From Aquimarina spinulae (lineage in GTDB: Bacteria > Bacteroidota > Bacteroidia > Flavobacteriales > Flavobacteriaceae): a DNA stretch of 64,000 bases. Positions within the stretch are counted from its first letter, which is position 1. Each line of letters begins with the position of its first letter. Of this stretch, positions 10,654-16,213 are shown one piece after another. The notes below the pieces were generated by a model. The model was not told the origin of the DNA and ran no database searches. It saw only the letters and a list, made by a program, of their open reading frames with translations. The position numbers and the translations under genes are program-made. Location of the stretch: assembly GCF_943373825.1 (NCBI RefSeq), contig NZ_CALSBP010000001.1, positions 992,001 to 1,056,000 of the forward strand, given 5' to 3'.

Positions 10654-11841
10654 ATGTTTTCAAATATAAAAGACGATTTACAAAAAGAGCTGGATGAGAT
10701 TATATCGGCAGGATTGTATAAAACCGAAAGAATAATTACTACCCCACAAGGAGCCAGTATAGACACAACAAATACCAAAGATGTATTAAATTTTTGTGCA
10801 AATAATTATTTAGGCCTTTCATCACATCCTGATGTAATTGAAGCAGGTAAGAAAGCCATAGATTCTCATGGGTATGGATTGTCATCTGTGAGATTTATTT
10901 GCGGAACTCAAGATATTCATAAAGAACTAGAGCGTAAAACTGCCGAATTTTTGGGAATGGAAGATTGCATTTTATATGCAGCTGCTTTTGATGCTAATGG
11001 AGGAATATTTGAACCTATTCTTGGGCCAGAAGATGCTATTATTTCTGATGCACTAAACCATGCCTCTATTATTGATGGAGTTAGATTATGTAAAGCAAAA
11101 CGCTTTAGATACGAACATAATAATATGGTAGATCTTGAAAAGCAATTAAAATCGGCAGAAGGATCAAGACGTATACTTATTGTGACAGATGGTTCTTTTT
11201 CTATGGATGGTACAATTGCCCAGTTGGATAAAATCTGTGATCTGGCAGATCAATATGAAGCTATGGTTATGATAGACGAATGTCATTCTACAGGTTTTTT
11301 AGGAAAAACAGGTCGAGGAACACATGAGTATCGTGATGTAATGGGGCGTATAGATATTATTACAGGAACCTATGGTAAAGCTTTGGGTGGTGCTTCTGGT
11401 GGATTTACTGCTGCCAGAAAAGAAATTGTAGAAATGTTAAGACAACGATCCAGACCTTATTTGTTCTCTAATACAGTAGCACCATCAATTGTAGGAGCAT
11501 CGATCAAAGTATTAGATTTGTTAAGTTCCTCTACAGTACTACGAGATAAACTAGAAGAAAATACAAAATACTTCAGATCAGAAATGACCGCAGCAGGATT
11601 TGATATTATCCCGGGAGATCATCCTATAGTCCCGGTAATGTTATACGAAGCAAAACTTGCACAAGAATTTGCAGCTAAATTACTTGAAGAAGGAATTTAT
11701 GTTATTGGATTTTTCTATCCTGTTGTACCTAAAGGGAAAGCAAGAATTAGAGTGCAATTGTCAGCTGCTCATGATCGCAATCACTTAGAAAAAGCAGTAA
11801 AAGCTTTCACTAAAGTGGGTAAAGAACTGAATGTGATATAA
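10654..11841 (+). CDS. kbl: Glycine C-acetyltransferase (2-amino-3-ketobutyrate CoA ligase)
   Basis: 395-residue PLP enzyme of the alpha-oxoamine synthase family; it cleaves 2-amino-3-ketobutyrate with CoA to glycine and acetyl-CoA. PLP Lys242 is in [14 protein letters not shown], the ring-stacking His in [11 protein letters not shown], and the cofactor Asp-x-x-His in IDECHSTG. Length matches the family. With tdh upstream it completes the two-step threonine-to-glycine route. Confidence 0.95.
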
Positions 11842-12034
11842 ATACAAACGTTTGTTAGTGGTTTAAAAAGTAGAGGATTCATAGAATACTTAGAGTTTTA
11901 TTTAAAATCTTTCAGTAATATCTATTAAAACATCAAGATTTGATGATAATACTCTGGTGATTATGAAAAAAATCAAAAATTATTTTGAATCGTAATAGTT
12001 TTAGCTAATTTAGCAACGTAATAATGATACAATA
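11842..12034 (+). promoter_or_regulatory. Promoter of the aromatic amino acid operon
   Basis: TTTTG at 11983-11987 and TAATTTAG at 12006-12013 (one base off TAnnTTTG), 18 bases apart, give a plausible Bacteroidota promoter with a start of transcription near 12020. This is about 15 bases before the leader peptide at 12035. The preceding ~140 bases after kbl hold no clear terminator or gene. Confidence 0.5.
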
Positions 12035-12112
12035 ATGAGCAATTTATTTACTTGGAACGGATTCTATTTTTTCTTCTTTTATTTTAAAAGCAAGATCGGG
12101 ATCGTTATGTAA
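12035..12112 (+). CDS. Phe/Tyr-rich leader peptide of the pheA operon
   Basis: 25-codon frame, ATG 12035 to TAA 12110-12112, too short for usual ORF lists. Its centre reads FTWNGFYFFFFYF: within 13 codons there are seven Phe, two Tyr and one Trp. The operon downstream makes Phe and Tyr, so this is a classic attenuation leader. The codons after the aromatic run (ATC GGG ATC, 12095-12103) carry the sequence that can pair with the 5' arm of the terminator hairpin at 12140. Aromatic-codon stalling would free that segment and favour readthrough. Confidence 0.85.
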   Translation: MSNLFTWNGFYFFFFYFKSKIGIVM

Positions 12113-12139
12113 ATAAATCAGCAAAATTTATAAAACTAG

Positions 12140-12169
12140 AATCCCGATGAAAAATCGGGATTTTTTTTT
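12140..12169 (+). terminator. Attenuator terminator before pheA
   Basis: A perfect 9-bp stem, AATCCCGAT (12140-12148) with ATCGGGATT (12154-12162), loop GAAAA, followed by an unbroken T run to 12169. It ends 16 bases before the pheA start. The competing antiterminator is ATCGGGAT at 12095-12102 pairing with ATCCCGAT at 12141-12148, eight pairs. Confidence 0.88.
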
Positions 12170-12185
12170 GCAATAAAATTAACAT

Positions 12186-13016
12186 ATGAAACAAAAGGTT
12201 GCTATACAAGGAATAAAGGGTTCATATCATCACGGCGTTGCTCAGGCATATTTCGGAGAAGATATAGATGTAAATGAATGCATGTCTTTTCAGGAAGTAG
12301 TGCATAGTTTAGAACATAATAAGAGTACAGATGCAGTAATGGCAATCGAAAACTCTATTGCAGGTTCTATTATTCCAAATTATGCTTATATAGATGAGCA
12401 TGATCTTACCATTAGAGGAGAATATTTTTTACCTATTCATCACTGTTTAATGGCTTTAGATGGACAAGAAATTTCAGATGTCAAAGAAGTATATTCTCAT
12501 CCAATGGCTTTGCTACAATGTAAAGAGTTTTTTAGAGCACAACCACATATCAAATTGATAGAGGATGCAGATACAGCCGATGTTGCTAAGAGAATTCATG
12601 AACAGCAACTAGAAGGAGTTGCTGCCGTAGCAGGAGAAACCGCTGCAAATATTTATCAATTAAATATTTTAGCCAAAGAGATTCAAACTATAAAATCAAA
12701 TAGTACCCGATTTTTTATTTTAAATACAGAAGAAGAATCTAACTCAGAAAAGAAAGATATCAATAAAGCATCTTTAAAATTTCTAACAGATCATAAAAAA
12801 GGAAGTTTAGCTACAGTACTTAATGTAATGAGTGATTGTGGATTGAATTTAACTAAAATCCAATCATTACCTATTATTAGTATGCCTTGGAAATATTCCT
12901 TTTTTGTCGATGTAACCTTTATGGATTATGATGATTATGCTAAAGCAATGTCTATCCTAAAAATCATGGCATTAGAACTAAAAGTATTGGGTGAATATAA
13001 AAATCAAAATGGATGA
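12186..13016 (+). CDS. pheA: Prephenate dehydratase
   Basis: 276 residues converting prephenate to phenylpyruvate. The N-terminal PDT domain opens with VAIQGIKGSYHHGVAQAYFG and has AIENSIAGSI and the catalytic NSTRFFIL (TRF) motif. A C-terminal ACT domain (~residues 195-276: KGSLATVLNVMSDCGLNLTKI) would bind Phe for feedback inhibition, although the usual ESRP is QSLP here. There is no chorismate mutase domain; that activity is fused to the DAHP synthase at the end of the operon. The stop overlaps the next start by four bases (ATGA). Confidence 0.95.
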   Translation: MKQKVAIQGIKGSYHHGVAQAYFGEDIDVNECMSFQEVVHSLEHNKSTDAVMAIENSIAGSIIPNYAYIDEHDLTIRGEYFLPIHHCLMALDGQEISDVKEVYSHPMALLQCKEFFRAQPHIKLIEDADTADVAKRIHEQQLEGVAAVAGETAANIYQLNILAKEIQTIKSNSTRFFILNTEEESNSEKKDINKASLKFLTDHKKGSLATVLNVMSDCGLNLTKIQSLPIISMPWKYSFFVDVTFMDYDDYAKAMSILKIMALELKVLGEYKNQNG

Positions 13017-14212
13017 GCATTCAAACGGCAAAAAGATTAGAAACAGTAGAAGAATACTATTTCTCCAAAAAATTAAGAGAAGTTAGAGAGCTTGTAGCTT
13101 CAGGAAAACCGGTTTTAAATATGGCTATTGGTAGCCCAGACTTGGATCCACCAAAAGAAGTAGTACAGGCCATTCAGGAAGCAGTACTTGTAGATGGTGC
13201 TCATAAATATCAAAGTTACCAAGGCTTGCCAGAATTAAGAGAAGCCATTGCAGATTTTTATAGTGCAAAATACCAGGTTTCCTTAAACCCAAAAGATGAA
13301 ATCTTACCACTAATGGGATCTAAAGAAGGAATCATGCATATTTCTCTGGCGTACCTTAATGAAGGAGATGAAGTATTGGTTCCTAACCCTGGATATCCAA
13401 CATATAGTGCAGTGACTAATTTGGTAGGCGCAAAACCAATTTTTTATGATTTAATTGAAGATAATGGATGGGAGCCAGATTTTCATAGCCTTTCAAAAAA
13501 AGATTTGAGCAAGGTGAAAATTATGTGGATTAACTACCCAAATATGCCAACAGGAGCCTCGGGCAATGTGAGGCTATTTAAAAAAATGATTGATTTTGCT
13601 AAAAAACATAGCATTCTATTGGTAAAAGATAATCCATACAGTTTTATCTTAAACGATAGTCCTACAAGTATTTTATCAATAGAAGGAGCAAGAGAAGTAG
13701 CACTGGAGTTAAATTCTTTAAGTAAAACTTTTAATATGGCTGGATGGCGTGTGGGAATGGTTAGTGGTAGTTCTGATAAAATTGAAGCGATTTTAAAAGT
13801 GAAAAGTAATATGGATAGCGGTATGTTTCAAGGAATCCAAAGAGGAGCTATCGCAGCATTGCGTATTTCTAATGGTTGGTACGATAAAATGAATGCAATC
13901 TATAAGGAAAGAAGAACGTTGATCTGGGAGTTGGTAGATCTTTTGGGGTGTCGTTATGATAAAACCGCAAAAGGAATGTTTGTCTGGGCTAAGTTACCAG
14001 AAGGAACCGATGCAGTAGAATTTATAGACACTATCTTATATGAGAATGATATCTTCATCGCTCCTGGTGATATTTTCGGAAGTAATGGAAAAGGATATAT
14101 ACGTTTTTCACTTTGTGTAACGAAAGAGAATATTAAAGAGGCTATAGGAAGACTTAATAAAACAGAATTACCATTGGCGACAAAGGATATGATAAATCAA
14201 AATTGTAACTAG
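13013..14212 (+). CDS. Class I/II PLP aminotransferase of the Phe/Tyr operon
   Basis: 399 residues, fold type I. NxxGYPTY (PNPGYPTYSAVT) and the PLP Lys in SLSKTFNMAGWRVG are visible, and RFSLC near the end supplies the carboxylate-binding Arg. Its place between pheA and tyrA, overlapping pheA by four bases, implies transamination of phenylpyruvate and 4-hydroxyphenylpyruvate as the last step of Phe and Tyr synthesis. The sequence alone does not exclude an aspartate or LL-DAP-type aminotransferase; note NYPNMPTGA in place of NPxNPTG. Confidence 0.88.
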   Translation: MSIQTAKRLETVEEYYFSKKLREVRELVASGKPVLNMAIGSPDLDPPKEVVQAIQEAVLVDGAHKYQSYQGLPELREAIADFYSAKYQVSLNPKDEILPLMGSKEGIMHISLAYLNEGDEVLVPNPGYPTYSAVTNLVGAKPIFYDLIEDNGWEPDFHSLSKKDLSKVKIMWINYPNMPTGASGNVRLFKKMIDFAKKHSILLVKDNPYSFILNDSPTSILSIEGAREVALELNSLSKTFNMAGWRVGMVSGSSDKIEAILKVKSNMDSGMFQGIQRGAIAALRISNGWYDKMNAIYKERRTLIWELVDLLGCRYDKTAKGMFVWAKLPEGTDAVEFIDTILYENDIFIAPGDIFGSNGKGYIRFSLCVTKENIKEAIGRLNKTELPLATKDMINQNCN

Positions 14213-15061
14213 ATGAATGTATTTGTAGTAGGGATAGGTCTAATCGGAGGTTCTTTTGCCTTAGATATTAAAGCAGCTTTTAATGAAGCTAAGATTTATG
14301 GTGTGGATAGAAGTGAAGATAATCTGAACGAAGCATTATCACTAGGTCTTATTGACTATACATCTAGTTTGGATGAGTTGGATAAAGCAGATGTAGTTAT
14401 AATCGCCATACCAGTAGATGCAACCGTCGAGATATTGCCCACTATTTTAGATAAAATAGATGATAACTGTTTAGTTTTTGATGCTGGTTCGACCAAGAAG
14501 AAATTATGTAATGCTGTAGAGAATCATGACAAAAGAAGGAATTATTTGGCAATACATCCAATTGCAGGGACAGAGTTTTCTGGGCCACAAGCGGCAATTG
14601 CAAATTTATATAGAGGAAAAACGAATATTATCTGTGAGGTAGAAAAAACAGCATTTAAATTACAAGAAAAAGGGATGGAGATTTTTTCTAGATTAGGTAT
14701 GCGAATTCGTTATATGGATCCCTCTTCTCATGATAAGCATATTGCTTATGTTTCACATTTATCACATATTAGTTCTTTTATGTTAGGTAAAACTGTAATC
14801 GAGAAAGAGAAAAACGAAAGAGATATTTTTGATATGGCAGGTAGTGGTTTTGCTTCGACTGTTCGATTAGCAAAAAGTTCTCCCGCTATGTGGGCACCAA
14901 TTTTTAAGCATAATAAAGAAAATATAATAGAGACATTAGAAGAATATATTGCTAATCTTGCTCAATTTAAAGAGTTGATTGAAAATGACGATTTTTTAGC
15001 TGTATATAGAGAAATGGAAGATACAAATCATATAAAGACAATTTTAAAAGGAATTGCTTAA
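14213..15061 (+). CDS. tyrA: Prephenate dehydrogenase
   Basis: 282 residues; oxidative decarboxylation of prephenate to 4-hydroxyphenylpyruvate. The Rossmann motif GIGLIGGSFALDI is at the N terminus, followed by GVDRSEDNL (the acidic Asp suggests NAD), AIPVDA, DAGSTKK and the prephenate-site HPIAGTEFSGP; HIAYVSHLSHI follows. It starts directly after the aminotransferase stop (TAG ATG), indicating translational coupling. No ACT domain is present. Confidence 0.95.
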   Translation: MNVFVVGIGLIGGSFALDIKAAFNEAKIYGVDRSEDNLNEALSLGLIDYTSSLDELDKADVVIIAIPVDATVEILPTILDKIDDNCLVFDAGSTKKKLCNAVENHDKRRNYLAIHPIAGTEFSGPQAAIANLYRGKTNIICEVEKTAFKLQEKGMEIFSRLGMRIRYMDPSSHDKHIAYVSHLSHISSFMLGKTVIEKEKNERDIFDMAGSGFASTVRLAKSSPAMWAPIFKHNKENIIETLEEYIANLAQFKELIENDDFLAVYREMEDTNHIKTILKGIA

Positions 15062-15130: not shown

Positions 15131-16213
15131 ATGGAGAATAAAAAAGAACTTAGAAACTGGCTAGATGATTACAACCTGGATCATCCATTGGTAATCGGAG
15201 GGCCTTGTAGTGCCGAAACAGAAGACCAGGTAGTAAAAATAGCACATCAACTTAAAGATTCTGATGCTACAGTATTGCGTGCAGGAATCTGGAAACCAAG
15301 AACAAGACCTGGAAATTTTGAAGGAGTAGGAGCTTTGGGGTTAAAATGGTTGCAAAGAGCTAAAGAAGAAACCGGGATGAAAATTGCTACAGAAGTAGCA
15401 AATCCGCATCACGTAGAATTAGCTTTAGAACATGGAGTTGATGTTTTATGGATAGGAGCAAGAAGTACAGTGTCTCCTTTTATTGTTCAGGATATTGCAG
15501 ATGCCTGTAAAGGAATCGATAATCCAGTCTTAATAAAAAATCCAATTAACCCTGATTTATCCCTTTGGTTAGGAGCTGTAGAACGTTTTTATACTGCAGA
15601 CGTTAAAAACCTGGGAGTAATTCATAGAGGATTTTCAACATATGAGAAAACAAAATATCGTAATATCCCAGAATGGCAAATCCCCATTGATTTACAAAAT
15701 CGTTTCCCAGATTTGCCATTGATCTTAGATCCTTCTCACATCGCAGGAAGAAGAGATTTGATTTTTGACCTGTCTCAAACAGCTTTGGATCTTAATTTTG
15801 ACGGACTTATTGTAGAAACACATTACGATCCTGATAACGCTTGGAGTGATGCTAAACAACAAATTACACCAGAAACATTGGTTCAGTATATGAAAGATTT
15901 AAAAATTCGTAAAGAAATTGGAGAAGATGAAGCGTATCAAAAAGTACTTGATGAATTACGTGCTAAGATTGATATAGCAGATAATCAATTGTTAGAAGTT
16001 TTATCAAAAAGAATGAAAATTTCTGATGATATAGGAAAAGCAAAAGCCAAGCAAAATGTTGCTATTCTACAATCTAAACGATGGAATGAAATACTAGGAA
16101 GAATGATTCTTGAAGGAGAAGAAAATGGATTGAGTGAAGAATTTATACTTCGTATTTACAAAGCAATTCACCAAGAATCTATTAATCATCAGAAAAAAGT
16201 AGCAAAAGGATGA
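15131..16213 (+). CDS. Bifunctional DAHP synthase / chorismate mutase (AroQ type)
   Basis: 360 residues. Residues ~1-265 are a type I-beta 3-deoxy-7-phosphoheptulonate synthase, condensing PEP and erythrose 4-phosphate: GGPCSAE, RAGIWKPRTRPGNFEG, HRGFSTYEKTKYRN and DPSHIAGRRD (metal His). Residues ~270-360 are an all-helical AroQ chorismate mutase: LDELRAKIDIADNQLLEVLSKRMKISDDIGKAKAK. It thus supplies the first enzyme of the shikimate pathway and the branch-point mutase feeding PheA and TyrA, completing the operon. It begins 69 bases after tyrA. Confidence 0.95.
   Translation: MENKKELRNWLDDYNLDHPLVIGGPCSAETEDQVVKIAHQLKDSDATVLRAGIWKPRTRPGNFEGVGALGLKWLQRAKEETGMKIATEVANPHHVELALEHGVDVLWIGARSTVSPFIVQDIADACKGIDNPVLIKNPINPDLSLWLGAVERFYTADVKNLGVIHRGFSTYEKTKYRNIPEWQIPIDLQNRFPDLPLILDPSHIAGRRDLIFDLSQTALDLNFDGLIVETHYDPDNAWSDAKQQITPETLVQYMKDLKIRKEIGEDEAYQKVLDELRAKIDIADNQLLEVLSKRMKISDDIGKAKAKQNVAILQSKRWNEILGRMILEGEENGLSEEFILRIYKAIHQESINHQKKVAKG

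Follow-up and report, generated by a model that had tools for sequence, protein, structure and literature searches.

Comparative evidence for a probable three-state Phe/Tyr attenuator upstream of pheA in Aquimarina and other Bacteroidia

Introduction

In Aquimarina spinulae, the pheA gene is preceded by a short open reading frame (ORF) rich in Phe and Tyr codons and by an intrinsic terminator, which raises the question of whether the operon is controlled by a ribosome-mediated attenuator. The original prediction had proposed this for the site. The window analyzed here is a stretch of 64,000 nucleotides of the A. spinulae genome, and all coordinates given without a locus name refer to its + strand. 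The coordinates predicted for the leader ORF, the terminator and the antiterminator complement were all correct when checked, and the pairings, their conservation in relatives and the competing explanations are considered below.

Leader ORF, terminator and promoter upstream of pheA

Family models bore out the expected operon order of pheA, aminotransferase, tyrA and DAHPS/CM. The first structural gene is pheA (12186-13016), which encodes prephenate dehydratase (PF00800, E 4e-57) and is the single match to this family in its own genome. It is followed by a class I/II aminotransferase gene (13013-14212; PF00155), tyrA for prephenate dehydrogenase (14213-15061; NF006307, above its cut-off) and a gene for DAHP synthase fused to chorismate mutase (15131-16213; PF00793 and PF01817). 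Among the named relatives, the closest PheA proteins were those of Aquimarina sp. Aq78 and A. macrocephali, which were 99% identical.

The leader peptide ORF MSNLFTWNGFYFFFFYFKSKIGIVM (12035-12112) comprises 25 codons and ends with a stop codon at 12110-12112; its frame and aromatic run were confirmed by translation, and it has an F/Y-rich counterpart in relatives. Nine Phe/Tyr codons fall within its richest 14 codons. In particular, the control codons F10 Y11 F12 F13 F14 F15 Y16 F17 (12062-12085) form part of segment 1 of the putative attenuator. The terminator scan revealed an intrinsic terminator of 11 pairs, including G-U, at 12138-12164. Inside it lies the perfect 9-bp helix that had been predicted, formed by segment 3 (the 5' arm, 12140-12148), which is common to the antiterminator, and segment 4 (the 3' arm, 12154-12162), which overlaps the start of the T run at 12161-12169.

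Covariation of the terminator was evaluated in an alignment (A1) of 37 Flavobacteriaceae leaders, hand-picked from 57 non-redundant loci with the omission of other families and of some Flavobacteriaceae (Flavobacterium L058 among them). In this alignment, seven of the nine pairs showed changes on both sides, 98.2% of the cells paired and the covariation score was matched by 0/500 shuffles. The terminator was the only structure recovered by RNAalifold on A1, which may be expected because the alternative pairings are mutually exclusive. In a MAFFT alignment (A2), the antiterminators of different clades were shifted against each other by one column, and A2 was therefore not used for pair counts.

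A probable -7 box, TAATTTAG (12006-12013), a TAnnTTTG variant, is located upstream of the leader, and transcription would start near 12018, as judged from the position of this box. A TTTTG at 11983-11987, read from the sequence 18 nt before the -7 box, is a possible -33 element by its likeness to Bacteroidota promoters. A TAnnTT[AT]G box was present within 60 nt 5' of the leader start in 110/120 loci, compared with 15.2 expected from shuffles. The TAnnTTTG promoter consensus is quoted in PMC9723704, and the phylum is described as being without Shine-Dalgarno sites (PMC9723704, PMC6847099).

The variation among aligned leaders also bears on whether the frame is read. With seven groups summed, minor-allele counts in the F/Y codons were 9, 20 and 37 at positions 1, 2 and 3, and those of the whole leaders were 87, 131 and 175, a modest third-position bias. 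The third-position excess in the F/Y codons modestly supports translation of the leader frame. TTG starts were chosen for some Aquimarina leaders, which left the stop codon and the spacing unaffected.

These features could also be read as a constitutive terminator between the upstream neighbor and pheA, with the T-rich ORF as an AT-rich by-product, since T runs in AT-rich DNA read as Phe codons, the neighboring glycine C-acetyltransferase gene ends at 11841 and the scan from 11841 to 12138 revealed no other terminator on the + strand. The third-position variation of the F/Y codons and the conserved promoter-like box between that gene and the leader argue against this reading, which is taken up again with the comparative results.

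Conservation of the leader and terminator in relatives

In a first survey, GTDB species genomes were scanned with the A. spinulae PheA, and the best 80 of 280 relatives were taken. An F/Y-rich short ORF followed by a terminator was found within 400-450 nt in 79/79 named relatives with usable upstream DNA; these are the closest relatives, mostly Aquimarina, and their loci are related, so that the counts are not independent. The remaining locus, L062, had 37 nt of upstream DNA only and was set aside. Other genera among the 79 included Flavobacterium, Lacinutrix, Maribacter, Sinomicrobium, Galbibacter, Arcticiflavibacter and Aquaticitalea. Both the leader and the terminator were present in the Flavobacterium loci L058, L059, L061, L063, L064 and L065, and at L040, which showed a terminator alone within 350 nt, the leader appeared when more upstream DNA was included.

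A second survey extended the comparison to the family, class and phylum, in which prephenate dehydratase was found in 53/60, 33/119 and 258/296 genomes, respectively. Upstream DNA was taken for the best-scoring matches, at most 30 per search, which gave 87 new loci that are not a random sample. A fixed rule was applied to 450 nt of each region, namely a short ORF (10-45 codons) in which a stretch of 14 codons contains six or more F/Y, with a terminator no more than 120 nt from its stop. The rule was positive in 31/32 Flavobacteriaceae loci, including L129, which was re-read at a contig edge; L128, without a leader, was the one negative. An aromatic run before pheA, which the original prediction had suggested looking for in this family, was found in both surveys.

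In other families of the same class, the strict rule was positive in 12/26 loci, including L167, also re-read at a contig edge, and 10/26 loci showed no such arrangement. At L157, L158, L160 and L165, we observed an F/Y leader followed by a hairpin-like stretch and a T run that the rule missed, so that the count for the class probably underestimates the true number. Among the best-scoring loci of other classes of the phylum, 0/29 were positive by the fixed rule. As controls, the rule was applied to the reverse strands of the 87 upstream regions and to 20 dinucleotide shuffles of each region; it was positive on 0/87 reverse strands and on no shuffle, which argues against the T-rich ORF as a by-product of composition next to a constitutive terminator.

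Antiterminator pairing tracks the aromatic codons

Segment 2, ATCGGGAT (12095-12102), lies in leader codons 21-23, 9 nt after the last Phe codon. We confirmed the predicted 8-bp pairing of this segment with the terminator 5' arm, in which its complement is 12141-12148. In the window alone, this match was equalled by 4/200 shuffles, that is, it is modestly unlikely by chance. Taken by itself, the antiterminator was reached by 10/200 shuffles or fewer in only 45/80 rows. The case for the antiterminator is strong because of its conservation rather than because of the window's own 8-bp match.

To locate the antiterminator in relatives, we paired the terminator 5' arm with the stretch that runs from the last F/Y codon up to the terminator and took the best helix in each of 121 loci (109 distinct peptides). 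The antiterminator started 8-12 nt past the last Phe/Tyr codon in 106/121 loci, compared with 12.7 ± 3.0 loci in shuffled regions, where the maximum in 100 rounds was 20. Similarly, the mean antiterminator score was 17.5 versus 10.3 for the shuffled regions. At L076 and L079, the rule had picked another F/Y-rich ORF upstream, although the proper leader is present in both; these loci were kept as outliers among the 121 and omitted from the energy, folding and pairing tests. With the two misassigned loci excluded, segment 2 started anywhere between 33 nt upstream and 6 nt downstream of the last base of the stop codon. This wider scatter relative to the stop indicates that the spacing tracks the control codons, not the stop. 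Since a ribosome extends approximately 10 nt beyond its A-site codon, one that halts on any of the aromatic codons would leave segment 2 just accessible.

The two sides of the antiterminator helix also change together. Leaders with [CT]GGG were found in 67/73 loci with TCCCG arms and [CT]GAG in 0, and in loci with TCTCG arms the corresponding leaders were [CT]GAG in 24/27 and [CT]GGG in 1. The expected [TC]AGG leaders were found in just 5/11 loci with TCCTG arms. We also exchanged arms between classes. A 5-base core with Watson-Crick pairs only, at an offset of 10-12, matched its own arm in 58/118 loci, compared with an expected 2.2 for arms from the other classes; the difference was weak once G-U pairs were admitted (86 own versus 56.2 expected). 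When helix scores were compared in the TCCCG, TCTCG and TCCTG classes, foreign arms matched the own arm in 0 to 8% of cases. The two TTCCG loci paired with TCTCG arms about as well as with their own arms, and own arms were little better than foreign ones in a mixed class of other arms. Additionally, the interior of the antiterminator hairpin was more stable than shuffled sequence in 94/107 distinct leaders. The compensatory changes for which the original prediction had suggested looking are present, in that arm class and leader class change together in relatives. Both this covariation and the fixed spacing speak against a constitutive terminator, which we regard as highly improbable.

The attenuator might also be operated by something other than a ribosome at starved codons, since T-boxes, riboswitches and protein-bound leaders likewise use alternative hairpins before biosynthetic operons. 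A search of Rfam release 15 revealed no family at its cut-off in the leader region, and a relaxed threshold gave sub-threshold matches only. The alternative pairing, moreover, lies at a set distance from the aromatic codons, and we give a T-box, riboswitch or protein-bound leader a very small chance compared with sensing by a ribosome.

Protector hairpin and proposed mechanism

Ensemble folding of the window RNA predicted a further hairpin (1:2) at 12039-12122 that includes the antiterminator segment. Its inner helix is formed by 12072-12081 with 12085-12095 and its outer helix by 12042-12051 with 12109-12118, and the minimum free energy (MFE) of 12018-12139 was -18.8 kcal/mol. The 3' strand of this hairpin contains the codons K, S and K after the aromatic run, together with segment 2. 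The folds of the 26 loci displayed had the same arrangement, with the aromatic codon run in the 5' strand and the next codons and segment 2 in the 3' strand. Over 107 distinct leaders, segment 2 was paired upstream with a mean probability of 0.72, versus 0.49 with shuffled upstream DNA; this probability exceeded 0.5 in 97/107 leaders, compared with 54 for the shuffle mean. The leader MFE was below the shuffle mean in 107/107 leaders, with a mean z of -2.88. Scored as a single uninterrupted helix, the protector showed no excess over shuffled sequence (9.21 versus 9.32). A design without the 1:2 hairpin was considered and dropped, as ensemble folding with bulges shows the hairpin in most leaders.

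The predicted 1:2, 2:3 and 3:4 pairings together make up the full classical attenuator design. The attenuation logic that had been proposed for this site stood up, and the stall and antitermination steps are supported by the covariation and the fixed spacing in relatives; the 1:2 protector hairpin, however, had been overlooked. With an estimated probability of about 0.9, we interpret the region as a ribosome-mediated three-state attenuator that makes expression of the operon depend on how much charged tRNA-Phe and tRNA-Tyr is available, and we infer from the sequence that the leader is translated, that termination occurs in vivo and that the switch responds to Phe and Tyr.

According to this model, a ribosome that lingers on the Phe/Tyr codons (12062-12085) would disrupt the 1:2 hairpin and set segment 2 (12095-12102) free. 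The free segment would pair with 12141-12148, the terminator at 12140-12162 would not form and the operon would be read. If the ribosome instead advanced to the stop codon (12110-12112), it would cover 12095-12102 and the terminator would form. When the leader is not translated, the 1:2 hairpin would hold segment 2 and the terminator would probably be favored; the presence of this hairpin suggests termination rather than read-through in that state.

We compared these states by folding window RNA made to 12159 with the ribosome represented by coarse masks. With either of two masks on the control codons, the antiterminator probability was high (0.89 and 0.93), and with the ribosome masked at the stop codon the antiterminator fell to 0 and the terminator reached 0.84. 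With the full terminator (12164), the terminator won at equilibrium in every masked state. When the two were compared as bare helices, the terminator was the more stable one in 119/119 loci, and the antiterminator hairpin with its folded interior averaged -13.2, near the -14.6 of the terminator. Since the complete terminator is favored at equilibrium, the switch must be kinetic. In ribosome-free window RNA ending at 12150, where the 5' arm has just been made, the antiterminator prevailed over the protector (0.91), so that the outcome of the untranslated state is not predictable from energies alone.

A ribosome could also be halted by the peptide that it has made, as in TnaC, where the nascent chain arrests the ribosome with tryptophan. 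Arrest by the aromatic leader peptide, perhaps with free Phe or Tyr, would be compatible with the length of the aromatic run and with its order, which is partly conserved within genera. Between lineages, F and Y interchange and the run length varies, which fits codon sensing, and arrest by an abundant amino acid would switch a biosynthetic operon on in times of plenty. We therefore consider nascent-chain arrest scarcely probable and prefer stalling at Phe and Tyr codons.

Comparison with known attenuators

The pheL attenuator of E. coli has a leader rich in the end product of the operon and alternative pairings. The region described here resembles pheL and trpL in its short, end-product-rich leader peptide, its 1:2, 2:3 and 3:4 pairings and its intrinsic terminator before the operon; the trp attenuation scheme is summarized in PMC1183508. 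Upon comparison with the E. coli pheA and trp systems, we found several differences. The leader combines Phe with Tyr codons, and both amino acids are products of the operon. Segment 2 of the window lies inside the leader ORF, and in some relatives, such as Flavobacterium L058, it lies just after the stop codon. In contrast to E. coli, the host belongs to a phylum described as lacking Shine-Dalgarno sites (PMC6847099). Finally, unlike the E. coli attenuators, the present one is unrecognized by any Rfam family at its cut-off. A stretch at 12091-12168 matched the Rfam family Trp_leader (RF00513) with 24.1 bits against a cut-off of 41, perhaps reflecting a common layout of antiterminator and terminator.

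A study of Flavobacterium psychrophilum from 2021, whose first author is reportedly Guerin, concerns a member of the same family. According to this study, there are strong clues that amino-acid operons of F. psychrophilum are attenuated through leader peptides, and a conserved 5' element, which other genera also possess, is named before pheA (PMC9723704). This element shares with the attenuator described here the family, the gene, a structured 5' region and the lack of an Rfam hit, and the two are likely identical; for pheA, the text consulted there describes neither a leader sequence nor an antiterminator, a 1:2 hairpin, a spacing or covariation (PMC9723704). The original prediction had called such mechanisms rarely described in Bacteroidota, which holds in part and has to be qualified by these F. 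psychrophilum clues and the pheA 5' element (PMC9723704). Leader-peptide-like short ORFs have also been noted in Bacteroides thetaiotaomicron (PMC7366714), and leader genes near structural genes were counted for another purpose in many phyla, including Bacteroidetes (PMC4833913). PMC2864571 lists a "pheA" RNA motif and assigns it to Actinobacteria. In the literature consulted, we found no description of the pheA leader peptide of these bacteria, its pairings or its class-wide spread. An earlier prediction may be contained in Lopatovskaya et al. 2010, which reportedly treats attenuation in bacteria.

The mechanism itself is textbook knowledge; the comparative support for it here is strong, and it is conserved among relatives in a phylum in which attenuation is little studied. 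We lean slightly towards the view that combined Phe and Tyr attenuation is ancient and class-wide in the Bacteroidia and that its ribosome-edge spacing of approximately 10 nt is under selection in a phylum without Shine-Dalgarno starts. In that case, kinetic coupling of transcription and translation would be required in these species, and their amino-acid operons would quite generally be controlled by attenuation, in line with leader-like ORFs before trpE, hisG and, in tandem, ilvD. The region would offer a concrete, testable aromatic amino-acid sensor for Bacteroidota. Because a classical attenuator works only if ribosome and RNA polymerase keep pace, it would also make the close following of the polymerase by the ribosome directly testable in this phylum, and the gap of 8-12 nt from the last control codon to segment 2 would serve as a quantitative design rule.

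Leader-like ORFs upstream of other amino-acid operons

Similar arrangements were observed elsewhere in the A. spinulae genome. Upstream of trpE (L171 735-856), a leader MKTILTNNWWWSSQNENVVR with a WWW run is followed by a strong terminator, and upstream of hisG (L180 1269-1387), a leader MNNIFVHHHHSYIFAQAW with an HHHH run is followed by a terminator. By a simple helix scan, the antiterminator was not above chance in either the trpE leader (489/500 shuffles) or the hisG leader (209/500 shuffles), and both leaders are regarded as leads only. A hisG 5' element is named in PMC9723704 as well. Additionally, a Thr/Ile-rich frame ending ITTGTITIITLRG lies upstream of thrA, a homoserine dehydrogenase-family frame (L177 168-282, reversed locus), where no terminator was found by our terminator rule. 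A Thr/Ile-rich frame before thrA recalls the leader thrL.

Upstream of ilvD, on the reverse strand of its own genome (L173, L179), A. spinulae has two Ile/Val-rich leader ORFs in series with one terminator each. Such tandem leaders were found in 13/18 members of the genus Aquimarina, A. spinulae included (the others being L182-L191, L193 and L195); a single unit was present in L181 and none was detected in L192, L194, L196 and L197. In 26/26 units, the best complement of the terminator 5' arm started no more than 4 nt from the end of the leader stop; for the two units of A. spinulae, to which the shuffle control was applied, the complement was equalled by 27/500 and 2/500 shuffles. A TAnnTT[AT]G box preceded the first ilvD leader in 8/13 cases and was present in 0/13 of the 3-55 nt stretches that separate the first terminator from the second leader, so that one transcript may pass both units. 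A pair in series that responds to the same signal could thereby check the supply twice. Tandem attenuators with leader ORFs are also described for a single Salmonella transcript, mgtCBR, where the pair senses different signals, ATP and proline (PMC3641672). The Aquimarina ilvD leaders, in contrast, are both Ile/Val-rich.
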